Virus record (IMG/VR): IMGVR_UViG_3300021403_000175
Span: 1-20,446 of that record
DNA: 20,446 bases
DNA from: a virus
Strand: one strand, 5' to 3'
Shown: positions 1 to 18,100 of the stretch, piece by piece
Numbering within the stretch: position 1 is the stretch's first letter
How the letters are laid out: each line of letters begins with the position of its first letter
Notes under the pieces: model-generated
What the model was told of the DNA's origin: nothing
The model's database searches: none
What the model saw: only the letters and a program-made list of their open reading frames with translations
Translations under genes and position numbers: made by a program

Positions 1-210
1 GCCGCGCCTGCGCGAGTATCTCCAGGGCTAACCGCGACCAACCCATCCGCGCCCGCCCTGCCTCACCAGTCCGCTACGGACGTTGCCCATCCACACCCGC
101 CGTGCCGTGCCCGTCCTTTGCAGACCTCTCCCCGTCTGACCTCGACTTACCACGCCCGCCATTCCGTGCCCTCCCTGGCCCGTCCGTGCCATGCCAGACT
201 TGCCTCGGCA
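1..210. repeat. Degenerate 5-bp tandem repeat array 1 (NNNCC / GGNNN), runs off the window edge
   Basis: The stretch parses into consecutive pentamers with CC (GG on the other strand) at a fixed phase, for example gtgcc-gtgcc-cgtcc and gtgcc-atgcc-agact. There are occasional one-base phase slips. The other three positions vary, so it is a periodicity rather than an exact repeat. It begins right beside the stop codon of the minus-strand gene at 217 and continues past base 1. In the minus-strand transcript it reads as GG every five bases. No credible gene lies in it. Confidence 0.8.
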
Positions 211-216
211 AAAAAA

Positions 217-744
217 TCATGCCGCTAGATCGCCAACGATTTCTTGCGCCGTCCTGATCGTTTCCGATAGTTCAGCTACGCGGGCCGCGCGTGCGTCCTC
301 GGGCGAGTCTCTACGGATTAAACCGGCGACTTGCTCAATGGTCATCTTGATAGCTTCCATCTGCCGGTTGAGAATCTGAATCGCGGAGCGGCATTCGTCC
401 TGCCTCTGCACGAGTACGGTTATGTGTTGATAAAAGCGGTCCCTGTCACCGCGCGGCCCTTCGATCACATTTACAAAAAGAGGCTTTGGCGGATCTCCCG
501 GTTGAAGCGTTACCTCAACGCTCCGCGAGAGCCATCGAGCCTGTACGAGCCTGTATTTTTTCGCGGCCTTTCCGTCGTGCCATTCAAAGCAGCCATGAAG
601 CGGAGAGGCGGCGGATTTCGCCGCCTCTACTATCGCGACCGGCTTTAACTTCTGTTCCCCGCTCGCCTGCCAGATGCGCTCAAGCTCCGGCCCGACGACT
701 TCTGCTGCTACAGGGAAAGTGCGGTTGCGATATCCGTATTTCAT
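217..744 (-). CDS. Phage protein of unknown function, 175 aa
   Basis: No enzymatic motif is visible. The N-terminal half (about residues 20-75) has the pattern 'PLHGCFEWHDGKAAKKYRL' followed by 'QARWLSRSVEVT', which I recognise as a recurrent uncharacterised phage protein type. The C-terminal half (about 105-175) is rich in charged residues, Gln and Ala and is probably a long helical or coiled-coil segment. The ATG overlaps the TGA of the upstream gene as ATGA, so the two are translationally coupled and probably act together. The stop lies against pentamer array 1. It is unusual in being bordered, with its partner, by two repeat arrays. The gene call is firm; function is unknown. Confidence 0.85.
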   Translation of the reverse strand: MKYGYRNRTFPVAAEVVGPELERIWQASGEQKLKPVAIVEAAKSAASPLHGCFEWHDGKAAKKYRLVQARWLSRSVEVTLQPGDPPKPLFVNVIEGPRGDRDRFYQHITVLVQRQDECRSAIQILNRQMEAIKMTIEQVAGLIRRDSPEDARAARVAELSETIRTAQEIVGDLAA

Positions 745-1448
745 GCCGCTTTCTTTTGTGCCTCCATCCTGAGATCGAACAGACCGTATTCGAGGCCCGC
801 CGAGTTTTTAGAATCGGGCCGACCTTCCGCGAGGCCGACCTGAGCGCCGACACGCTGCATAAGATTGGTCACATCTTGCAACGTGAACAATCCAGCGTCG
901 TATCGGATGGATGGGCGAAGCGACCATTCGCCGGGATGCCAGCGTGGGCGCGGGCGCAGGTCGAAAACGCCCGAGGCGTTGCGAACCGGCGCGATCCACA
1001 TATGCGGAACAGCGGCGTCCTTATCAACGCCCCATATCCGAATGAGCGGTGTGTTATCCTCGGCGTCGTAGCCATCGGCCTTAGTAAAAATGCCCAATTT
1101 CGCGAGGGTCATTTTATAGCCGACCGTGCGGCAGGCGCTTATCATCGCGCACCGAATACTGGCGGCATGAATTCCATACCAGCCTTCGGACGAACGATAA
1201 GCAGCCGCAGTGCAGAGGGCCTCGAAGTTCTTCGGGTCGCGTTTCTTCCGCGATTTAGAAGTTCCGCCCTCTGCCTGCGCCGCCGTGATATCCTCCCTCA
1301 CTTTTTGAGAGACACGGTTCACCGCTATATGCGCGGTGCCGACACAATTGAAGGTCACAATTCGCATGTCGAGCGGAGCAATCTGGACCGACGTTGTCGG
1401 TCGCGCGATAGCTTCGCCGTTTTCTTCTAGCACTGCTTTTTTGGTCAT
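741..1448 (-). CDS. Phage protein of unknown function, 235 aa
   Basis: The layout is a short N-terminus, then 'DMRIVTFNCVGTAHIAVNRVS', a Lys/Arg-rich linker (about 65-70), a central segment with 'GWYGIHAASIRCAMISACR' (about 90-107), and a C-terminal part containing 'DLRPRPRWHPGEWSLRPSIRYD'. This combination matches a widespread uncharacterised phage family by my recall; no catalytic residues are evident. The start is supported by an AAAGGTGG Shine-Dalgarno sequence about 8 bases upstream of the ATG at 1448. It heads a two-gene unit with the 175-aa gene (ATGA overlap). Its 5' side borders a hairpin and pentamer array 2, so translation appears to restart here after a long untranslated repeat. 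Gene confident; role not assigned. Confidence 0.88.
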   Translation of the reverse strand: MTKKAVLEENGEAIARPTTSVQIAPLDMRIVTFNCVGTAHIAVNRVSQKVREDITAAQAEGGTSKSRKKRDPKNFEALCTAAAYRSSEGWYGIHAASIRCAMISACRTVGYKMTLAKLGIFTKADGYDAEDNTPLIRIWGVDKDAAVPHMWIAPVRNASGVFDLRPRPRWHPGEWSLRPSIRYDAGLFTLQDVTNLMQRVGAQVGLAEGRPDSKNSAGLEYGLFDLRMEAQKKAA

Positions 1449-1500
1449 GATTGACCACCTTTCTATTTAGAATTTCCCGGTCGATCCCATTCATTGCGGG

Positions 1501-1531
1501 CGAACGCGATCCCGAGAAAAAATCGCGTCCG
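1501..1531 (-). other. 10-bp hairpin between pentamer array 2 and the next gene
   Basis: CGAACGCGAT (1501-1510) and ATCGCGTCCG (1522-1531) pair with a single G.U in the minus-strand RNA (7 perfect bp plus an extension), enclosing an 11-nt T-rich loop. It sits at the transcript-3' edge of the repeat array and about 50 nt upstream of the start at 1448. No T-run follows the stem on the minus strand, so it is not a standard intrinsic terminator. It could bound the array structurally, protect an RNA end, or be a processing site. Confidence 0.6.
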
Positions 1532-2212
1532 TCCGCTTTCCCATGCCCTGCGTTTCCGAGGCAGGCCCGCGCTGCCGCGTTTCCGTGCCTCGCCTAACCG
1601 GACCAGAGCTTGCGATGCCCCGGCGCTCCGAGCCATACGTGGCCCGTCCATTCCACGCCCGCGTTGCCAATGCTTGTTCGCAGCGAGCCTAGCCGTGCCC
1701 CGCCTGTCCAATCCCGCCACGCCGTTCCTGGCCCATCCGCGCCCCGAATTTCCTGACCAAGCCCGGTCACTACTGGCCCGTACTGCCATGCCCGCCCTGC
1801 CTATCCTTTCCTCGCCGGTCCCTGCCAATACAATCCCGGTCTCGCCATTCCGCGCCTGCCTGTGCTCGCCCTGCCATCGGCTCCCCACCAAGCCCGTCCT
1901 CGACTTGCCACGCCCGCCGTGCCCCACCAGGGCCATCCCGGCGCATCCCGGCCAATGCAGGCCGTGCACCGCCTCGCCCGCCATTGCTCGCCATGCCATG
2001 CGGTCCCACTTCACGACCTGCCGCGCCGCGCCCGCCATGCCCTGCATCGCCTTGCCGGGCCTGTCCACGCGATGCCATAACACGCCGTGCCCGCCATGCC
2101 ACTGCTCGGCGAGCCATAGCAGACCTAGCCCGTCCACGCCATCCCGCCTGACGTAGCCCCGCCGTGCCGCTTCTCGCCTCGCCATCGCCAGACCTGCCAG
2201 ACCTTTTGCATT
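1528..2212. repeat. Degenerate 5-bp tandem repeat array 2 (NNNCC / GGNNN), about 137 units
   Basis: About 685 bases parse almost throughout into pentamers with CC on the plus strand (GG on the minus strand) at one phase, for example ctgcc-tatcc-tttcc-tcgcc, with a few single-base phase slips. Minus-strand units resemble ATGGC, GGGCA and GGCGG. It starts exactly at the stop codon of the winged-helix gene (2213) and ends at the 1501-1531 hairpin. Long open frames occur on both strands, but they follow from the pentamer being free of stops and show no protein-like composition. I see no gene, tRNA or promoter inside it. Its entry sequence on the 2181-2198 side matches that of array 1 at 188-204. 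Confidence 0.85.
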
Positions 2213-2473
2213 TCAAACTTCCTGCTTAATCAAAATTTCATAGAGACTCTGTCGCCGGTTCACTACGCGGTAATCGATTACTCCGCGCTGTCGCATATCG
2301 CGCATGATCCGGTCTGGACTTCCCGGCGCGACCGGCCCCGCCCGATCCGCCACAAAAAACCGCAGTTCGTCGGCGTGAAAATCCCGGCGCTCGCGTCTGA
2401 AAAATTCCAGAATCGCTGCGCCGATCCGTTCGCTCACGCGGTCAAGATGTTCCTCTTGTTCGTCGTCGTACAT
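2213..2473 (-). CDS. Small winged-helix-like protein, 86 aa
   Basis: Residues 8-30 form a likely helix (ERIGAAILEFFRR). They are followed by 'FHADELRFFVADR', then 'PGSPDRIMRDMRQRGVIDYRVV' (about 50-72) and a final 'SLYEI' strand. Helix, helix, recognition helix and then two short strands is the winged-helix layout, and this pattern recurs in small phage proteins I recall. It could bind nucleic acid as a transcription or replication accessory factor; the target is unknown. The ATG follows the upstream TAA directly (TAAATG). Its stop codon abuts the pentamer array, so the array lies in the same transcript. Confidence 0.8.
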   Translation of the reverse strand: MYDDEQEEHLDRVSERIGAAILEFFRRERRDFHADELRFFVADRAGPVAPGSPDRIMRDMRQRGVIDYRVVNRRQSLYEILIKQEV

Positions 2474-2851
2474 TTAGAAAAACTCTCCATCGAAAAACTC
2501 GCCTTCGCCATCGACGCTCAGTAATCGCCGCATCTCATTTAGAAGTCGGGCGTCCCGTTTTCCATGAATGGGTCGCGAGTCCTGTAAACGCTGCCCGATC
2601 TGGAAAGCGGTGCGGTGAAGTTGATCGTTAGACCCCCGACTTAGAGCTATAAGGACCTCCGCGATTTCGTCTCGCAAGGGATCATTAGGCTCCCACGGCT
2701 CACTCGCAAACCTTCGCCGCAGGTGATAGTCAGGCGCAAGCCGATTGCGCGGCGCGAGCCTTCGGCGAAGACCCGGGCTTTCGCTCATCATCCGGTAAAA
2801 GGCGTTCCTTATCACGGTCAAGAGCGTTTCATTCGCTTCAGCCGGTTTCAT
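2474..2851 (-). CDS. Hypothetical protein, 125 aa
   Basis: No recognised family. The chosen start is the ATG at 2851, which overlaps the upstream TGA (ATGA); the longer frame upstream lies inside other genes. The protein is Arg-rich in its centre (about residues 28-50), mostly helical in appearance, soluble, and ends in an acidic tail with a tandem 'GEFFDGEFF'. No cysteine motif and no membrane segment. Its position among early-operon genes suggests a host-takeover or DNA-metabolism accessory role, which is only an inference. Confidence 0.7.
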   Translation of the reverse strand: MKPAEANETLLTVIRNAFYRMMSESPGLRRRLAPRNRLAPDYHLRRRFASEPWEPNDPLRDEIAEVLIALSRGSNDQLHRTAFQIGQRLQDSRPIHGKRDARLLNEMRRLLSVDGEGEFFDGEFF

Positions 2852-3039: not shown

Positions 3040-3260
3040 TAGTTCGTCCTCCGGTTGATCTCCACAAGCCGCCCGGCATGATGCGCCCTGAATTGTTCGC
3101 GCCAATAAACCCGCGCCGTTTTCTTTGCACGCGCAGCATCGGCGGATGCCATGACCTCGACGGCAATCAATTCGTAAATCGCGGTGCGGTTTCGGTACAA
3201 CGCGACCGCGAGCAGCGCCGCGCCGCCGATCAGAACGCATAACTGAAACGTGTCGCTCAT
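3039..3260 (-). CDS. Small membrane protein, 73 aa
   Basis: The start used is the ATG at 3260, which overlaps the TGA of the preceding gene (ATGA). A hydrophobic N-terminal segment at about residues 6-26 (LCVLIGGAALLAVALY) looks like one membrane anchor. The remainder is a helical, basic, cytoplasmic-type domain containing 'VYWREQFRAHHAGRL'. No recognised family. The TAA overlaps the ATG of a second small membrane protein, so both are made from the same message in a coupled way. Confidence 0.75.
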   Translation of the reverse strand: MSDTFQLCVLIGGAALLAVALYRNRTAIYELIAVEVMASADAARAKKTARVYWREQFRAHHAGRLVEINRRTN

Positions 3261-3574
3261 GGTTCCAACTTCCATGAATCAGGCAGCGTGTCGCGCATAA
3301 GAATGTGCGCTGGCAGTGGCACAGGGTCGCCGCGTCCGTTCCGGTTATCGCGCTTGTAGATTGCTGCGCTCACGCACGCAACGGCGTGTCGTAATTCTTC
3401 GCGGTGATATTCCTCTAAATTTCGTTGCCAATGCACTTTGCATTTTTCGCCGCAGGCGGGGCATTTCCAGATGGACGGCGCGTTCTTGTCGTAATTTTTC
3501 ACCACGACTTCGCATTGCCGCACTGCGCATCGCGGATTCTCGCAGTAAATTTCAGTGACGAATATTACATCCAT
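3257..3574 (-). CDS. Small zinc-ribbon-like protein, 105 aa
   Basis: Cysteines at about C11, C16, C21, C38, C41 (CPAC) and C45 are arranged as in a zinc ribbon or treble-clef module with a beta-rich N-terminus. The remaining half has a helix (about 53-74) and a Pro-rich tail. No catalytic motif is seen. The ATG at 3574 lies 9 bases after the upstream TAG and is preceded by a GGTAGGG-like ribosome site. It is one of several small cysteine-rich proteins in this operon, which fits nucleic-acid-binding or protein-binding accessory factors. The specific role is unknown. Confidence 0.78.
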   Translation of the reverse strand: MDVIFVTEIYCENPRCAVRQCEVVVKNYDKNAPSIWKCPACGEKCKVHWQRNLEEYHREELRHAVACVSAAIYKRDNRNGRGDPVPLPAHILMRDTLPDSWKLEP

Positions 3575-5980: not shown

Positions 5981-6145
5981 TCACCTGCTCCCGCGCGTCG
6001 CAAACGCGAACCACCAAATCAGAATCACCAGTGCGTAAATCGAGATCGTGAACCATCTCGGCGGGCGGCTGATCGACCACCAGAGCGTTGCCGCCGTGAG
6101 GCCGAGTATCAGCACTCCGAACCATACGTAAACGGGGAATTCCAT
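5981..6145 (-). CDS. Small two-pass membrane protein, 54 aa
   Basis: Found by translating the gap after RecT. ATG 6145 overlaps the RecT TAA (TAATG) and the frame ends at TGA 5981-5983. The sequence is almost wholly hydrophobic with two membrane-length segments, about residues 5-23 (YVWFGVLILGLTAATLWW) and 32-49 (FTISIYALVILIWWFAFA). They are separated by an Arg-Pro-Pro-Arg turn, and the end is basic. The N-terminus and C-terminus would lie on the same side. It could be a holin-like or superinfection-exclusion protein, but its place between recombination and zinc-finger genes gives no clear pointer. Confidence 0.75.
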   Translation of the reverse strand: MEFPVYVWFGVLILGLTAATLWWSISRPPRWFTISIYALVILIWWFAFATRGSR

Positions 6146-7044
6146 TACGAAAGATCCTCATTGGCGTCACCTTCCTCCGGCCCCTCGACCGGCTCGCCTA
6201 CGGTTGCCTCTTCGGGATGTTCGAGCAAATGTTCCTCGTCGAGCGCGCCGACCTGCCACATATCGGTAGGCACTTCGGACGAAAATTGCTGCGGCCTGCC
6301 TTTCTCGGCCTGCGCATCGAGATTCCACGCCTGCGCGACCTGCGGCGACATCGGCGCGTGCTTGGCGACTTTGTGGATCATCGTTTTGATCCCCATCGCC
6401 GCGAAGTGATCGGCCCACGGCCCGAACACTTTGCCCTGGCGATCCCGCGAAAGAGCAAAGCGGTCGCGGTGTTCTTCCATCTCTTCTTTGCTCATGTACT
6501 CGACTTGCTTAAAGCCGGTCGAGAGTTTGATGCCGCCCCAAAATCCGATAACCTCGCCGCGCGTGCCGCTCTTTGGATAGCGGTGGCGCACGTCGGGATC
6601 GAGGCCGTCGAGCAATTCGAATTCGTCAAACTCGCGCACCGTTTTCGCGGTGCAACCGGCGACGAATCCCGAGCGGATGAGCAATTGAATTTTGCCCTTC
6701 GCGCCAATAATCAGTTGCGCCTCGTAGCCGCCGCGACCGGCATTCGCTCTTTTATTCCAGAACGGAATCAGGAACGAATGGCCGAGCGGTGTGTTCGGTT
6801 CAAGTCCCAAAATCACCGACTGCATAACCGCGCCGCAGATCGAAGCGGGATGGCACTGGACAAGGCGCGAATTCGTCGCAAGCGTAGTACGCACGATGCC
6901 GAACAACCGCGCGGGCGTCATGATCTTAGGCAGAATGTCGGCAATGCGATCCTTCGATTGCTTGAGTAAGTTCGCGACCTCGACGATAGTGTCGCGGTGC
7001 TGCTGCTGCGGCGGCGTTTTTTGCAGATTCATTTCGTTGGGCAT
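6145..7044 (-). CDS. recT: RecT-family single-strand annealing protein, 299 aa
   Basis: It binds single-stranded DNA exposed by the partner exonuclease and anneals it to complementary strands in phage recombination. Family features are visible in order: the N-terminal helix region, 'TNSRLVQCHPASICGAVMQ' (58-75), 'LGLEPNTPLGHSFLIPF' (79-95), the core 'AQLIIGAKGKIQLLIRSGFV' (109-128), 'EFDEFEL' (138-144) and the late 'MGIKTMIHKVAKHAPMS' (217-233). The last about 30 residues are acidic, perhaps a partner-binding tail. Length is typical. It is coupled to the exonuclease gene by a TAATG overlap; exonuclease first, annealase second is a common order for such modules. Confidence 0.95.
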   Translation of the reverse strand: MPNEMNLQKTPPQQQHRDTIVEVANLLKQSKDRIADILPKIMTPARLFGIVRTTLATNSRLVQCHPASICGAVMQSVILGLEPNTPLGHSFLIPFWNKRANAGRGGYEAQLIIGAKGKIQLLIRSGFVAGCTAKTVREFDEFELLDGLDPDVRHRYPKSGTRGEVIGFWGGIKLSTGFKQVEYMSKEEMEEHRDRFALSRDRQGKVFGPWADHFAAMGIKTMIHKVAKHAPMSPQVAQAWNLDAQAEKGRPQQFSSEVPTDMWQVGALDEEHLLEHPEEATVGEPVEGPEEGDANEDLS

Positions 7045-8021
7045 TATTCACCTGTATTCGTGAACAGAAAACGCCGGGGTGCCGGTTTCATCGTTGTGTG
7101 CTTGGCGATCATGTCGGCCCATTTCGCCCCGTCAATCGGCACGTACTCTCCGTAGACATCAGCGGCGAGCGCGCGCCAATCGACAACGGCGGTATCTTTC
7201 GGCGCGTTCCATGTAGCCCGGTAGTGCGCGGATCGGATGCCCTTTTCCTCGCCGATAGCGGTTTTAACCCGCGTCTCGGTTTCCTTCCGGGCTTGCTCAA
7301 TCATCTTTTCCGCTTCGCGAATGCGGTTGAGTTCCGTGAGCATCGCTATCTCTTCTTCGGTCGCGAGGCGCACCTTGCCGTTAGATCGCGGGTAGCGCGC
7401 GTGAACGTAATCCCTGGCGCTGCGCGAATAATTGATGTCTGGCGGAACGCGCTTAAGGACGTGGTTGAACCAAAAGCATTCGACATCCCTGAGCATTTCG
7501 CGCTCGATATTCAGATCGCGCTCAATTTTGTAAATGCGCAAATCGCTGCCGCCTAAAAGCGCGATGATCTGCCATTCATCGACGTCGCAGAGCGACATAT
7601 ACCAACGGCATTGCCACTCGTAACGCTCCGGGAAAAACGGGTCGTCGTCGTCGGGATGGCCCCACAAATACCGCTGATCGAAGGAAACGTTTTTTGCGTC
7701 GATGCCTAATAGCGGCGCGTCCGCAGAGGGCGAGAGCGCGTCGGGCGAACCGACCTGCCAAGGCCGCTCGGGATGTTGAATCGTTTTATCCCACCACTCG
7801 ACCCGACGCCCGGTCATGCGCGAAAAAGAGTGAACGAGCGCCTGTTCCAAATCCTTGCCGATAGCCCGGCGCATCGCCGTTGACTCGTCTACTTCCGGCT
7901 CGGCCATTCCGATTTTTTTGTTATAGACCGACCAGATTTCACGTTCGTCGGAATCTAGTCCGAGAATCGCGGCAACTTCCGAACCGCCGATTCCGCGCGA
8001 TTTTAATTCGAGGTCAATCAT
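7044..8021 (-). CDS. YqaJ/lambda-type recombination exonuclease, 325 aa
   Basis: A PD-(D/E)XK nuclease expected to degrade one strand of duplex DNA and hand the other to RecT. Visible motifs: 'GIGGSEVAAILG' (10-21), the helix 'AIGKDLEQALVHSF' with E59, 'GSPDA' with D94, 'IDAKN' with D108 and K110, and Q137 in 'EWQCRWYM'. These correspond to the metal-binding and catalytic residues of the YqaJ family, with Asp in place of the more usual Glu in the ExK motif. The C-terminal part has a coiled helix (about 220-250). The ATG lies 3 bases after the preceding stop. It appears intact. Confidence 0.93.
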   Translation of the reverse strand: MIDLELKSRGIGGSEVAAILGLDSDEREIWSVYNKKIGMAEPEVDESTAMRRAIGKDLEQALVHSFSRMTGRRVEWWDKTIQHPERPWQVGSPDALSPSADAPLLGIDAKNVSFDQRYLWGHPDDDDPFFPERYEWQCRWYMSLCDVDEWQIIALLGGSDLRIYKIERDLNIEREMLRDVECFWFNHVLKRVPPDINYSRSARDYVHARYPRSNGKVRLATEEEIAMLTELNRIREAEKMIEQARKETETRVKTAIGEEKGIRSAHYRATWNAPKDTAVVDWRALAADVYGEYVPIDGAKWADMIAKHTTMKPAPRRFLFTNTGE

Positions 8022-8024
8022 TTT

Positions 8025-8231
8025 TCAATTCCCGCCTTTTTTGCATTCGCCTAATGACTCCGCAATTAAATTCGCCCGCGCTAAAGCCATGCATGTTTCG
8101 CAAAGTACACGCCGGTCAAACCATCCAATCGGCCCCTCGCGAAAGCATTTTTCGCAACGGCCCATCAGGTCGGTCAACGCGAGATCGACGGCCTCGCGGC
8201 GCAACGCCGCATAGCGTGCTGAGACGCCCAT
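8025..8231 (-). CDS. Small CxxC...CxxC zinc protein, first gene of the early operon, 68 aa
   Basis: Two cysteine pairs, C26/C29 (CEKC) and C44/C47 (CETC), spaced 14 residues apart, form a likely single four-cysteine zinc site. N-terminal and C-terminal helices flank it. The start ATG at 8231 has AAAGGTG about 9 bases upstream. It is the first gene after the leader with the four hairpin units, immediately upstream of the exonuclease. It could be a small regulator or a partner of the recombination enzymes; neither is shown. Confidence 0.78.
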   Translation of the reverse strand: MGVSARYAALRREAVDLALTDLMGRCEKCFREGPIGWFDRRVLCETCMALARANLIAESLGECKKGGN

Positions 8232-8257
8232 AGCAGGGACACCTTTAGCGAGCGATC

Positions 8258-8289
8258 AAAAAACTAACGAACGGAACTACTGGTTTTTT
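8258..8289 (-). promoter_or_regulatory. A/T-rich 7-bp inverted repeat just upstream of the first early gene
   Basis: AAAAAAC (8258-8264) and GTTTTTT (8283-8289) are perfect inverted repeats separated by 18 bases. In the minus-strand RNA this stem would lie about 25-55 nt before the start codon and end in a U-run. The stem is weak (mostly A-U). It could be a leaky attenuator or a spacer structure following the leader units; it may also be chance in A/T-rich DNA. Confidence 0.35.
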
Positions 8290-8296
8290 CGCGTGA

Positions 8297-8514
8297 TTTG
8301 TTCGGGGTGGTTCCGAAATAGGCTACGCAAAGAGCCTGTCCCGTCTCGCAATTCGTTCGGGTGGTTTAAGGCCGAAAGGTCTGCGCGGCGGCGCTTTGAT
8401 CTGACGTAGTTCGTTTGGTTGGTTCCAAAAGTCTACGCCGAGAAAAAAGACTTATGCCGGGATTTGTTCAGGTCCGGGCTGCACGATTCCTTGCGTCATT
8501 CATTTCTAAATGAC
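8297..8514 (-). repeat. Four tandem box-plus-hairpin units in the early-operon leader
   Basis: A conserved box (plus strand consensus TTYGTTCGGG-TGGTTCC) occurs at 8297, 8352, 8410 and 8464; its GTTCGG core repeats at 55, 58 and 53 bp. Each box is followed by a hairpin: AGGCT/AGCCT (8320-8337), AGGCC/GGTCT with a GAAA loop (8369-8382), AAGTCT/AGACTT (8429-8453), and for the divergent fourth GTCATT/AATGAC (8495-8514). Stem sequences differ but pairing is kept. Downstream of the predicted minus-strand promoter they would be the transcribed leader of the recombination operon, as hairpin then GGAACCACCCGAACGAA. An antitermination (put- or nut-like) or repressor-binding role is possible; both are inference. 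Confidence 0.7.
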
Positions 8515-8537
8515 TGGTTTAATCAAGAACAGTACCG

Positions 8538-8566
8538 ATATTACCCCTGTACCTAAATTTGAGCAA
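8538..8566 (-). promoter_or_regulatory. Predicted sigma70-type promoter for the early operon
   Basis: On the minus strand, TTGCTC (8566-8561) and TAATAT (8543-8538) are separated by exactly 17 bases, a good housekeeping promoter. Transcription would start near 8531 and run through the four hairpin units to the gene at 8231, leaving a leader of about 300 nt. GTACC occurs twice around the -10, about 20 bp apart, which might be an operator, but this is weak. Confidence 0.55.
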
Positions 8567-8588
8567 CAGGATTTATTGGAGAATTTCT

Positions 8589-8613
8589 AGGCGCTAAAAA
8601 AAGCCTTATTTTG
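8589..8613 (+). terminator. Weak terminator-like hairpin with T-rich tail
   Basis: AGGC (8589-8592) pairs with GCCT (8603-8606) around an A-rich loop and is followed by TATTTTG on the plus strand. The stem is only 4 bp, so it would end transcription poorly. No plus-strand gene precedes it, so a functional terminator here is doubtful. Confidence 0.2.
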
Positions 8614-8762
8614 AATAGAATACCCGTCCTTCTGTGGCGCGTTATCGAGAGTGAGCAGAAGTCTAAATCCTCAACAAATTAACCCCTCATTTTCGGCCCA
8701 AATAATTGAAATTAAGCGAGAACAAAAATCAACAGACGACGGCAAAAGCAACCTATAGTTTC

Positions 8763-8807
8763 CTTGTTAAAGATTTGCCAACGCCCCATACTCTAAAGGG
8801 TAACAAG
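8763..8807. promoter_or_regulatory. Inverted repeat bracketing the repressor promoter, candidate operator
   Basis: CTTGTTA (8763-8769) and TAACAAG (8801-8807) are exact inverted 7-mers, 38 bp centre to centre. One lies on the -35 element and the other at the expected start point. This placement suits negative autoregulation by the downstream XRE protein. I see no further copy of the half-site at the minus-strand promoter. Confidence 0.4.
8764..8792 (+). promoter_or_regulatory. Possible promoter of the repressor gene
   Basis: TTGTTA (8764-8769) and CATACT (8787-8792) are spaced 17 bp and match four of six positions at each element. Transcription would begin near 8799, giving a leader of about 73 nt before the GTG at 8872. 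It overlaps the inverted repeat listed next, as expected for an autoregulated repressor promoter. Confidence 0.4.
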
Positions 8808-8871
8808 CGAAAATTTTTGGGACGGGTAGGGACCTTGCGGATTCCGCCTTCTCGGGGAAAGCGTTTGGACC

Positions 8872-9475: not shown

Positions 9476-11707
9476 TTAGAGCTTGATGTGTAAATTGCCG
9501 CTTGAGTCTTTGTAGATCGATCCCATTAGCAAGCCGCCCGCTCCCGCCGCCGCATCGTTGGCATAGGTCGGCGCGTTGATGCGCACGATTCCGTGGTTGT
9601 CCAGAATGATCGAGTAGGTCGCGTTGCCGAACTGCCCGTAAAAAGTATTCGTGATATAGAGCGAGGTGTCGTAAGACTGGTGGCCGATGCTCGATGACGA
9701 ATAGCCGGTCTGATACAGCGTGAGCGCCGCGCGTGAGCCGCTCGGCGCGGAGACGCATAGCAGGTCGCCGGGATTGATCTCGCCGATGCCTACGTTTCCG
9801 GTTGAGGTAATCCGCATTCGCTCTAAGCTCTGTGTTCCAAAAACGATGTTGCACAGGAGATCGGGCACGGTGTTGAATCCAGACAGATCGATGTAGCTGC
9901 GCTGCGCTCCTGTTCCGCCGCCCGCCGAAAGCCGCAGCAATCCAGCGTCATAATACGCAGCGTTGGTACACGCGCTGATTTCACCGCTGATACGAGCCGT
10001 ACCTACGGCGGGACGTGCCGGGAATGCCGACTGATTGTTTAGCAGGATCGCGCCCACTACATTGAGGGCTGTTTCCGGCGCTCCGGCCTCTGACACCGTT
10101 GTGCCGATTCCTACCTTGCCCGCTTGCGTGAAACGCACATGCTCGGTGCCATTGTTGTCGCAGAAAACCCCATCGCCGGATGCGCCCGCCGCCCCGAAAA
10201 TATAGCCGATGTTCGCGCCCTGGCGCACAAAAATAGCGTATGGATTCGCGCTTGTGAAGGTGCTCGCGCCGACGACTTCAAGCGCTGCGTTGTTTCCTGG
10301 CGTTGCGATCCCGATGCCGAGCTTGCCGACGCTCTGCAATGCAAATCCCGCCGCGTTGATGTTGCTCGCCCACGGTGTTTGTGGCGATCCGCCGCCGCCG
10401 CCCGTCGCGGTAATGGTCACATCGACACGGCCCGCGCCCGAATTATCGACGCCCGCAATGGTGGTATTCGAACCGGCAATCAGGTTCAAAATCGGGCGCG
10501 TTCCGACCGCTACGGAATTGACCCAAACCGCCGTGCTCGATCCAGTGGCCGTGGACGTGAGGGTTACGTCGATACGTCCGCTGCCCGTATTATTCACGCC
10601 CGCGATGGTGGTGTTCGTTCCGGCGATCAGGTTTAAAATCGGCTGCGTACCAACGTTTGCGTTATTGACCCAAATCGCTGTGCTCGATCCGGTCGCCGCC
10701 GCCGAGATCGTAACGTCAACGCGATTTCCACCGCTGTTATCGACCGCCGTAATCGTCGTGCCGCCGCCCTGAAGGAAATTGATCTCTTGACGCGCCGCAA
10801 CGAACGTTCCGCCGAGCGAGACGCGATGGCGCTGCGTGGTGGTGTCGGCGACAACCGCAAGCGTCCGATCCGCGCTTAGGTCGCCGCCGCCCGTTAATCC
10901 GGTGCCGGATAAAACTTGCCGCGTGGTCGGGACGCCGGTCGCGGGCGCAGCGGCCCACTTCAGGCCGTTCGCTTGCGTCGAGTCGGCAGTAAGTATCTGC
11001 CCATCGGTGCCAATCGGCAGGCGCGTGGTCGCCGCGCCATGCACGATCAGGTCGCCCTTAGTAGTCGTCGGGTCGGTCATGCCGGTAACCGGCGCTGCGG
11101 CCCATTTGACGCCGGTAGCCTGCGTTGAGTCGGCGGTGAGTATTTGCCCATTCGCGCCGACCGGCAAGCGCGTGGTGGCCGCGCCGCGCACGACCAAATC
11201 GCCTTTGGTGGTGAGCGGGTCGGTCATGACGCCGGTGATGACGACGTTAGAAAGCGTCTGCCCGCCGCCGTCGATTGGCCCGGTCCACCACTGCGCCCCG
11301 ATGGTGACAAGGCCGTCCGAACGGCGGATGGCAAACGGCGACGGTTCGAGCGGTATTCCGCTGTCGGAGTATCGCTTGATCGAGAAATTTGAGCCAGCGT
11401 TCGCGCCCGTTTCGGTTGCGCCGTCTTTGATGAGCGCCCACCGTGGAAGCGAGTCGCCGCCGCCATCGGTCGAGTCGAGCCATAACGCGCTCGACGGGTC
11501 GCCCGCCGATGGAATCACCTGCGCGGGCGAGAGAATAACCTTGCCGCCGCCATCGGGAACGTAGTCGTCGATGATGACGTTCGAGAGATGATGACCGCCG
11601 CCGTTCACGTCGCCGCCCCAATTGCGGATGTCGTTTGAGAGCGAGTTCAGTTGATCGGCGTGCAGCGAATCGGTCGGCGACAAATCATTGCGCGAAAGCC
11701 ATGCCAT
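9476..11707 (-). CDS. Tail fibre protein with internal repeats, 743 aa
   Basis: Likely a trimeric tail fibre or receptor-binding component. Residues 1-30 are a likely attachment region. Then come two tandem copies of a 49-residue unit (161-209, 210-258; 'TTKGDL', 'TTRLP', 'GQILTADSTQA') and three of a roughly 50-residue beta unit (about 289-437; 'TTIAGV', 'GSGRIDVTLT'). A glycine hinge (GGGGGS) follows, then fibre-type 'KLGIGIATP' and 'KVGIGTTVSE' motifs. The end contains 'RMRITSTGNVGIGEINPG'. There is no recognisable intramolecular chaperone domain at the C-terminus. The start has AAGGAG about 7 bases upstream. It lies in the tail cluster after the tip genes, which fits a distal fibre. Confidence 0.85.
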   Translation of the reverse strand: MAWLSRNDLSPTDSLHADQLNSLSNDIRNWGGDVNGGGHHLSNVIIDDYVPDGGGKVILSPAQVIPSAGDPSSALWLDSTDGGGDSLPRWALIKDGATETGANAGSNFSIKRYSDSGIPLEPSPFAIRRSDGLVTIGAQWWTGPIDGGGQTLSNVVITGVMTDPLTTKGDLVVRGAATTRLPVGANGQILTADSTQATGVKWAAAPVTGMTDPTTTKGDLIVHGAATTRLPIGTDGQILTADSTQANGLKWAAAPATGVPTTRQVLSGTGLTGGGDLSADRTLAVVADTTTQRHRVSLGGTFVAARQEINFLQGGGTTITAVDNSGGNRVDVTISAAATGSSTAIWVNNANVGTQPILNLIAGTNTTIAGVNNTGSGRIDVTLTSTATGSSTAVWVNSVAVGTRPILNLIAGSNTTIAGVDNSGAGRVDVTITATGGGGGSPQTPWASNINAAGFALQSVGKLGIGIATPGNNAALEVVGASTFTSANPYAIFVRQGANIGYIFGAAGASGDGVFCDNNGTEHVRFTQAGKVGIGTTVSEAGAPETALNVVGAILLNNQSAFPARPAVGTARISGEISACTNAAYYDAGLLRLSAGGGTGAQRSYIDLSGFNTVPDLLCNIVFGTQSLERMRITSTGNVGIGEINPGDLLCVSAPSGSRAALTLYQTGYSSSSIGHQSYDTSLYITNTFYGQFGNATYSIILDNHGIVRINAPTYANDAAAGAGGLLMGSIYKDSSGNLHIKL
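10397..10843 (-). repeat. Three tandem ~150-bp coding repeats in the tail fibre gene
   Basis: Two closely matching 50-codon units plus a more diverged first one encode beta-rich segments ending in 'RVDVTI' or 'RIDVTL'. The nucleotide similarity suggests duplication or gene conversion. Unit number could vary between relatives and change fibre length. Confidence 0.65.
10934..11227 (-). repeat. Two tandem 147-bp coding repeats in the tail fibre gene
   Basis: Residues 161-209 and 210-258 of the fibre are near-copies (MTDP, TTKGDL, GQILTADSTQA, KWAAAP). Most differences are conservative. They form an exact in-frame duplication, consistent with recent lengthening of the fibre shaft. Confidence 0.7.
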
Positions 11708-15196: not shown

Positions 15197-18100
15197 AATT
15201 TCCTCCTGCGGTGATGCGCGAAGTCTCGCCCGGCGCAACGGTGATCTGCGTCGAGCCATCCCAAAATGTTTCGCCCGGATAGGTGTTCACGATTGCGTTG
15301 TATGCCCCTGCCGGATCGGGAACGATGTACAGCGTGCGCCCCTCGTAAACCGCGAGCGGCGGCAGGTTGATGTTCACATCGTTCTGCGAATTGTCCACGC
15401 GAATGGTCTGATCGAATTCGTCGGCTTGCCACGGCGCGCCCGCCGCATCGGGATTCGGGTCGTTTGCTTCCGGCCCCACGGTTCGCACCTGCGGCGGCGC
15501 TCCGAACACATAAATCTCGCGGAACACGGCGACCTGCTCGTCGGATAAATTGCCCTGGCTATCGACGAGAAATCCGCCGACGAGCGCAACGCGATTCGCA
15601 AGGTTATCGACGCGCACGCGCAGCGTGACCGCGATGCCCATGCTTGGAACATCGAGTGCGCTTGATGTCGTCGAGTAAACGTAATCGGGCGATTCGATGA
15701 TGATGACGCTCGTTTTGTCGGGCGCGACATCCCACGCAGGCGAGACCGTGTAGGTCAATTCATCGTTCGTGGTGATATAACGGAACTGCCCCGCGCCCTT
15801 GCCCCTCAGAATCCGCGCAATGTTTCCTTTTTCGGAATCAGGCGCTAATCCATCCGCGCCAAATTGCGCTTCGCCGATGCTGTTATCCCATAGCGGATCG
15901 GTGATCGTCATCAGATCCGCGCTTACCGAATCGGCCCAATGGCGAATAATGAACACGTCGCCGACATCGACCGAATCGGCGGGGTCGGCGCGTATGCAGT
16001 CGGGCGTAACCGTGAATTCGCCGGTCACCGAATTAAACGCGGTGATTTCGAAATTCCACAACGGCGCGGAGCCGTCCGAGAAATCCGCGAGCGCCGAGGC
16101 GTAGCGCCCAATCCAGTTCGTATCGGAGCCGATGGCCTCGTTAACCTGAATGATATTCGGCGCGGTTACGCCGCTCACGGTGACGCCCGCGATACCCGAG
16201 TGACGGACGGCCTTCACCTTGACCGCGACGCTCGTAGCCGCTTGCTCGGGCATTCCTTGCGTCATCGGATGGACCGCTAGAAGGTCGATGGTCGCGGGCA
16301 ACGCGCCATCGCCCGATACTTGCTTGCCGATGAGACGCCGGTCGAAACCGGCCCACAAATCCCATCCGGCCCAAGTGGTAGCCGTTGGCAGCGGCGCGTT
16401 CGCGATCTGGACAAGCCGCGAGCGGGAGCGCGTTGCCGGATCGGGCGGCGGCACAGCCGAGATGGTAATTTTCTGATTCGTCGCGCCTGCCGGAATCTGG
16501 ATGCCGCTCAAGTTCGAAGGCGTCGCCGGTTTTCCATCCGCATCGCGCACGGTGACCGCGAAATAAACGGCCTGCTTTCCCGAGAGCGTGCCGCCCGTTG
16601 CAAGAACCGGATCGAAAATGCGCGGTTGAACCGGCGCAACAAATTCGTTGATGCACTCCTCGCCGACGATCACTAACGCCGGTGCCCATACGCCATCTTT
16701 GGTAATTGAAGAGTAGTCCTGCGAAAGCGCAAAGGTGCGCTCTGCCGCATCGGGATAAAGCGGATCGCCCGCGAATGGCGCAACCGTATTCGGCATCCAC
16801 GCCAAGCCCGCGATTGCCGGTAGCAGTTCGGGCGGAACGGGATCGGCGGGAACATCGACCGGCTTCGGCCCGGCGTCCAGATCGTACATTGCGTCGGTTG
16901 TCGGCGACGCGGAAATATCGATAGAAAAATCGGGGTTGAGCGTCCAGTTTTGCACGCGCCCCTCGGCGTAGCCGGTCGGCAGATCGTCGTGCGTCATCGA
17001 GACGATATCGCCGACCTGCGTTTGCAGAGCGAGAATCGTGGTGCGAAATGAAAATGCCCTGGCGTTGGCCTGCTCGACCGGCCCCACGCCGCCGACCTCT
17101 TCGCGCAGCCGCGTCGCGCAGATTCGCGCCGCTTGGCTTTTATTCGAGACGCCGACCAGACTCATGGTCGACGAAAGATAATTCGGCGAGTCCTCGGTGC
17201 CGACCGTCATCGCGTGGTCGATGTCGTAAGTGGTGACGTTGTTCAGCGCGTATGCGAATTCCTCATCGCCAAATTGCACGGTGAGCCAATTGAATTGCGG
17301 CGATATCGGCGTGGCATTGAGTGACTGATAAAGAATCGTGGCGCGAGTAAATGCGTTGCCCGCGAGCACGCTGGAATTCTCGCGGATGCCGATCCATAGC
17401 TTGCCGTTCTTGAAGGTGAAATATCCGAGGCCGCAATTCAGAATTTCGGTGAGCCAATCCTTGAGCGGCTTGCGCTCTTTGAGGATTCCGCGAAAAGGGA
17501 ACTGCCGCTCGTTGCCGTCGCCGATGAGTTTGGGGACCTGAATATCGCAGATCGCCGCCGCCGCCGTTGCTTGCTCGACATCGACAAACTGCTCCATTAC
17601 TTCGGAGGGGATCAGATTCGCGCGGGTCGGATCGCAGCGCAGGCCGATACCGCGCAGGTAGACGTTCACCGCGACCCATACGACATTTCCTAAACCTTCA
17701 AACCATTGCCGGTCGCCCGGCCCGTTCCAAATCCATCCGCCGATACCCTCATCGAGCAGCACCGACATCGTGTGATCCTCGACGGCGGTAAGCTGCAAGC
17801 CGGGCGAATCGGTGCGGCGAATCTCGGCGAACGCGGTGCCAGCGGCCCACGTCGAGCCAACGGGCGGCACACCCCACGGCGCTTGATCGAGCGCGAAAAA
17901 ATCAGAATCCGCCGCCGGGTCATTGCCGAGAATCCCGCGAAATCCCTGGTTGTCCTTCGGGTCGTGCGGTGGTTGCCCGTCAAGCAAGTGATCGCCGAGC
18001 GCGGGCGAATACTTTCCTACCGGCCCCTCGCTCACGATGCCGATAGCTGCTAAGAAGTCGCTTTCATCACGCGCCCCGGCGACGCCATCGACATTGACCG

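Follow-up and report, generated by a model that had tools for sequence, protein, structure and literature searches.

Two long arrays of a degenerate 5-bp unit lie at one end of a 20,446-nucleotide stretch of viral DNA (IMG/VR record IMGVR_UViG_3300021403_000175; the whole stretch is referred to here as the window), and the question that this locus raises is what such arrays encode, and on which strand. We conclude that they are very probably the templates of the guide RNAs (vrRNAs) that belong to a VIPR (Viral Interference Programmable Repeat) system encoded by the phage, a newly reported RNA-guided relative of CRISPR that has been proposed as a CRISPR ancestor (2026 preprint, PMC13142463). 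As set out in that preprint, VIPR consists of a phage RAMP protein, Vipr, and of vrRNAs made of GGY/NN pentamers, 9–16 repeats per guide, in which the NN pairs spell a DNA target and pair with it with a 1-nt skip, and the system represses competing mobile elements; RNA expression, Vipr binding, the 1-nt skip rule and repression come from the SUSP1 and P. fulva systems (PMC13142463). The present locus would belong to the kind already described as VIPR, its guide arrays being long and punctuated, and the function that we propose for it follows that one preprint (PMC13142463).

Under this proposal, copies of the Vipr protein, a small Cas7-like RAMP, would line the RNA, with each copy gripping one GGY triplet and exposing the NN that follows it. 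The NN series would base-pair with target DNA, leaving out one base between successive dinucleotides, and a competing phage or mobile element would have one of its genes repressed by this binding. In the clade to which the window belongs, many guides of about 8–12 (up to 16) pentamers would lie head to tail, and the point at which one guide ends and the next starts would be marked by a unit of 4 nt, GGCG in the window and GGCA in relatives. We infer that the locus is expressed and active, and that its targets are rival elements.

Periodicity and unit of the arrays

Relative to 200 dinucleotide-preserving shuffles, plus-strand CC pairs at lag 5 were in excess both in positions 1–210 (22 observed, 9.4 expected; z 5.1) and in positions 1528–2212 (59 observed, 29.2 expected; z 5.8). 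CC autocorrelation was also raised at lag 10 in the first region (z 4.6) and at lags 10 and 15 in the second (z 6.1 and 6.8), with z ranging from 3.5 to 6.8 over both arrays at lags 5, 10 and 15; CC pairs at lags 7 and 12 were depleted, and the period-5 signal was absent from the sequence flanking both arrays. This excess over dinucleotide shuffles (z about 5–7 at lags 5 and 10) bears out the preliminary description, which had reported a real element with a 5-bp period. An in-phase scan placed long tracts only at 1–218 and 1570–2211, with an additional short tract of 53 bp at 17714–17766.

The same description had noted a fixed phase of CC on the plus strand and GG on the minus strand; the periodicity stands, and the meaningful strand is the minus strand. 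Because the likely genes of this region are on the minus strand, we read the arrays there as 5′-GGYNN-3′, giving the minus-strand order array 2, vipr, vap, array 1 (Table 1). The unit is GG(C>A>T)NN, with positions 1 and 2 mostly G, position 3 fairly often A beside C and T, and positions 4 and 5 close to uniform (1.97 of 2 bits each). Periodicity and unit composition together give the fixed GGY and hypervariable NN that characterize the intergenic, RNA-coding arrays of VIPR.

Table 1. Coordinates of the array locus within the window
Feature	Positions	Strand	Description
array 1	1..216	-	~40 pentamers, four blocks; downstream of accessory gene; truncated at contig end
punctuation GGCG	54..57	-	
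punctuation GGCG	98..101	-	
punctuation GGCG	157..160	-	
vap (accessory)	217..744	-	175 aa, phrog_15946; overlaps vipr by 4 nt
vipr	741..1448	-	235-aa RAMP (Cas7-like), phrog_4652; glycine-rich loop near C-terminus (VGLAEGRPDSKNSAGLEYG)
array 2	1528..2212	-	~137 GGYNN pentamers, punctuated blocks; predicted vrRNA guide template series; upstream of vipr
punctuation GGCG	1715..1718	-	
punctuation GGCG	1793..1796	-	
punctuation GGCA	1857..1860	-	
punctuation GGCG	1915..1918	-	
punctuation GGCG	1979..1982	-	
punctuation GGCG	2033..2036	-	
punctuation GGCG	2092..2095	-	
punctuation GGCG	2145..2148	-	weak; upstream block ragged

Array 2 is covered by an ORF with an ATG (1463–2185, minus strand, 240 aa), and it could on that ground be a coding repeat for a Gly/Arg/Ala/Trp-rich protein. 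The length of this ORF, however, is unremarkable relative to the same units shuffled (p 0.07), the same test over 52 arrays gave a mean p of 0.53 with 4% of values below 0.05, the 4-nt punctuations shift its frame, and it matched no family, all of which makes a coding function highly improbable. Tandem pentamers can also be created by slippage, and a few recent internal duplications are present in other loci, as would be expected of a neutral slippage product in decay. Such decay should nevertheless hit all positions alike, whereas the first two positions stay G and the last two are near uniform; adjacent units that share an NN show no excess in the window (7, with 8.1 in shuffled arrays) and a slight excess in other loci (381, with 334 in shuffled arrays), and the association of the arrays with one protein family also counts against slippage, for which we see hardly any likelihood.

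The RAMP gene between the arrays and its neighbor

A profile of the family to which the 235-aa protein belongs matched PDB 36pp, deposited as the SUSP1 Vipr protein, with an E value of 6e-37; the lone window sequence, used without the family profile, did not recover 36pp. The SUSP1 counterpart is a 195-aa gene located between that phage's GGYNN arrays, which was matched by the profile, and hhalign of the Vipr family to this gene gave 99.8%. All 40 aligned family members matched phrog_4652. The AlphaFold2 model of the window protein (pLDDT 88) gave, using Foldseek, 43 PDB matches below 1e-3, which were class 1 CRISPR effector complexes with Csm3, Cmr and type VII Cas7-like chains, at moderate TM-scores of about 0.4–0.5, as for a distant fold match. 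A GxGxxRP-type loop is conserved in the family, and profile, predicted structure and loop together identify the window protein as a RAMP with an RRM core and a glycine-rich loop, as described for Vipr. Scans for Vipr peptide patterns in viral and genome contigs confirmed no close relatives of Vipr, and the first 3.6 kb had no relatives at the DNA level among phage records.

The small accessory gene adjoining vipr, also a feature of VIPR, has homologues next to vipr in about 20 array loci. Its model (pLDDT 86) combines a small domain at the N-terminus with long helices at the C-terminus, and its top PDB match was a MarR-like DNA-binding protein (E 0.03), a resemblance in a predicted model that is only a hint. 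The reading frames of both vipr and vap are intact and retain the invariant residues.

These features place the locus beside several known systems. The Type II VIPR system of Escherichia phage SUSP1 (PDB 36pp; KT454805) has a homologous Vipr and GGYNN arrays flanking the gene pair, but its vrRNAs are separate, each with an invariant structured 3′ tail, whereas the window guides are contiguous and punctuated; its accessory gene, vap1, is unrelated to the phrog_15946 gene of the window, with no HMM or hhalign match to that family. Class 1 CRISPR-Cas systems share, in their Cas7/Csm3 backbones, the predicted RAMP fold and by analogy a filament on guide RNA; they differ in that the window guides would spell their targets in gapped dinucleotides. 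In the window we found no CRISPR repeat-spacer array, with no CRISPR repeats near the arrays, and no Cas family matches among the genes scanned, with no cas genes seen near the arrays.

Array loci in other phages and the four-nucleotide punctuation

We retrieved at least 120 viral contigs solely by a pattern of twelve GG at a spacing of five, together with 72 control contigs retrieved by unrelated patterns, and searched both for Vipr homologues with a profile built iteratively from the 235-aa protein. Among the matches listed, a Vipr-family homologue was encoded in 80 of the 120 pattern-retrieved contigs and in none of the 72 controls, and in the Vipr-positive loci 91 of 92 arrays were carried on the vipr strand. 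This confirmed the earlier proposal that such arrays recur in phages. The locus also shows that guide arrays can be recognized in raw sequence, and, since about two thirds of the matches to the simple GGNNN pattern come with a Vipr homologue, many phage guide sets could be collected. Many Vipr-negative loci were low-diversity repeats or arrays close to contig ends; 15 diverse interior (GGNNN)12 arrays had no match to the Vipr profile (L002, L011, L015, L020, L024, L025, L034, L045, L048, L059, L067, L073, L088, L095 and L117), and these may have more distant Viprs or be arrays without one, as in satellites.

The preliminary description had seen two arrays with a few phase slips. The arrays are upheld, but the apparent slips are mostly occurrences of a unit of only 4 nt (GGCG, with GG next), which recurs about every 8–12 pentamers. 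Blocks between these punctuations in the window are mostly 40–60 nt long, about half being a multiple of 5, and the blocks are contiguous, separated by the 4-nt unit alone; unlike in SUSP1 vrRNAs, no structured 3′ tail is present between them. Across Vipr-positive loci the distance from one 4-nt unit to the next is most often 10–15 units, and the blocks of the window's clade (mostly 10–15 units) and the regular window blocks (8–12) correspond to the 9–16 repeats of a VIPR guide. The clade's 4-nt unit was GGCA in 114 of 140 cases; that of the window is mostly GGCG. The unit preceding a punctuation is less variable than others (3.36 as against about 3.9 bits), and guide ends are therefore not fully free. 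An Rfam search found no hammerhead ribozymes in window positions 1–2600 or in 11 relatives, which sets the locus apart from the hammerhead-interspersed type of VIPR array, and no other Rfam RNA was accepted for the array region.

A tree of 79 Viprs places the window within a supported clade of 25 (SH-aLRT 98) and SUSP1 elsewhere. Punctuation occurs mainly in this clade, in which 21 of 25 members, in the sequence examined, have the phrog_15946 accessory gene; three or more punctuations were associated with that gene (Fisher p 1.6e-8, a statistic that ignores relatedness). Vipr/vap pairs with GGCA-punctuated arrays, their genes annotated as encoding hypothetical proteins, are also present in cyanophage Cy-LDV1 (48% identity), in mycobacteriophages such as Quico (25% identity) and in a Rhodoplanes serenus plasmid that carries phage head and tail genes (NZ_LR026982.1, 20429–31028; 46% to the window Vipr). 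Within positions 33668–42282 of Mycobacterium phage Quico, the array beside gp57 is very regular, with GGC-only units and GGCA punctuation, and Quico, as a cultured mycobacteriophage, is convenient for experiments. In a locus from another Vipr clade (L004, 600–1250, minus strand), the guides are interleaved with at least 4 copies of a conserved non-repeat sequence, about 50 nt long (CTTATTGCRAGGAATAGGGCGG...), which is probably a vrRNA tail.

The punctuation presumably bounds or processes guides. The punctuated array is probably what the preprint calls staggered arrays with overlapping vrRNAs (fig. S18; PMC13142463), with which the window shares GGY/NN pentamers, 9–16 per guide, a vipr RAMP gene with a small accessory gene, and a phage genome. 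More tentatively, and with somewhat less than even confidence, we suggest that the array in this clade stores many tail-less guides within a single precursor, in the manner of a CRISPR array, and that in it GGCA or GGCG, one base short, would serve as punctuation (a guide boundary, and perhaps a signal for RNA processing or capping) that replaces the structured tail of the characterized type, and with which the distinct phrog_15946 accessory protein may act.

Guide content, targets and further features of the window

A single guide common to two loci (L049 and L060), found by a search for NN identity and with both starts set by punctuation, bears on whether NN is the message. Over nine units from one punctuation the NN bases are identical (18 of 18), and the scaffold differs at 7 of 27 bases (five at position 3 and one each at positions 1 and 2). 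As judged from these two sequences, the guide speaks for selection on NN, and it provides evolutionary support for the NN code that is independent of the experiments in the preprint. The close Viprs L100/L017 and L074/L027 had no common NN run above background, and pairwise array alignments were discarded since most arrays are not orthologous.

An alternative is that the G-rich strand, or an RNA from it, forms two-tetrad G-quadruplexes or a protein-binding platform for regulation, replication or packaging. GG-N3-GG spacing formally permits two-tetrad quadruplexes, and GGNNN arrays do recur in many phages, but the common guide kept the “loop” bases and changed the G and Y positions, the opposite of what a quadruplex, or equally a decaying slippage repeat, leads one to expect. 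Linkage on one strand to a RAMP gene and regular punctuation are also left unexplained, and we give the quadruplex or platform reading next to no weight; curvature and origin or packaging uses likewise fit poorly with arrays that follow vrRNA grammar and adjoin a RAMP gene of the Vipr family on the same strand. The suggestion of an RNA product, on the other hand, agrees with the published vrRNA grammar of the arrays and the same-strand Vipr-family gene.

Punctuated arrays give guide boundaries and therefore help target decoding. Searches of viral contigs with gapped 8-unit cores of five window guides, and of genome contigs with a 9-unit core of one window guide, found no target above chance, and the matches mostly failed to extend into flanking units; the top match, in Peribacillus acanthi (10 of 11 units), was within chance. 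A local search with skips of 0–3, on a very small sequence set, yielded no surplus of matches relative to shuffled guides. Phage DNA polymerase genes contain a match to the L049/L060 guide (LDYATVKDY, antisense, with the skips at wobble positions); this was not counted as evidence, since roughly one chance match is expected and G+C content is 50–55% as against 33%. NN composition had a weak sense correlation with codon positions 1–2 (r 0.40). The VIPR code in the window's clade is not confirmed by targets.

That no targets were found for the window guides, and that non-GG units and ragged blocks are more frequent in the window array than in those of most relatives, would also suit a VIPR relic, with decayed arrays and an inactive system. 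The intact vipr and vap genes with their invariant residues, and the regular length of about half of the window blocks, argue against a relic, which we consider improbable, and the arrays are best read as guide templates.

Elsewhere in the window, a RecT-like annealing protein (6145–7044, minus strand; PF03837, E 5e-34) forms a recombination pair with a YqaJ/RecE-like exonuclease (7044–8021, minus strand). The following 8022–8871, about 850 bases of lower G+C (45–52%), holds no ORF of at least 80 aa starting inside it and only the end of 7880–8233. A small cysteine-rich protein (3257–3574, minus strand) weakly matches the Lar-like restriction alleviation proteins (phrog_6422, E 5e-4). Finally, two 147-bp tandem repeats of about two copies each, 77–78% alike (10432–11228), lie inside a 743-aa tail-fibre-like gene (9476–11707).
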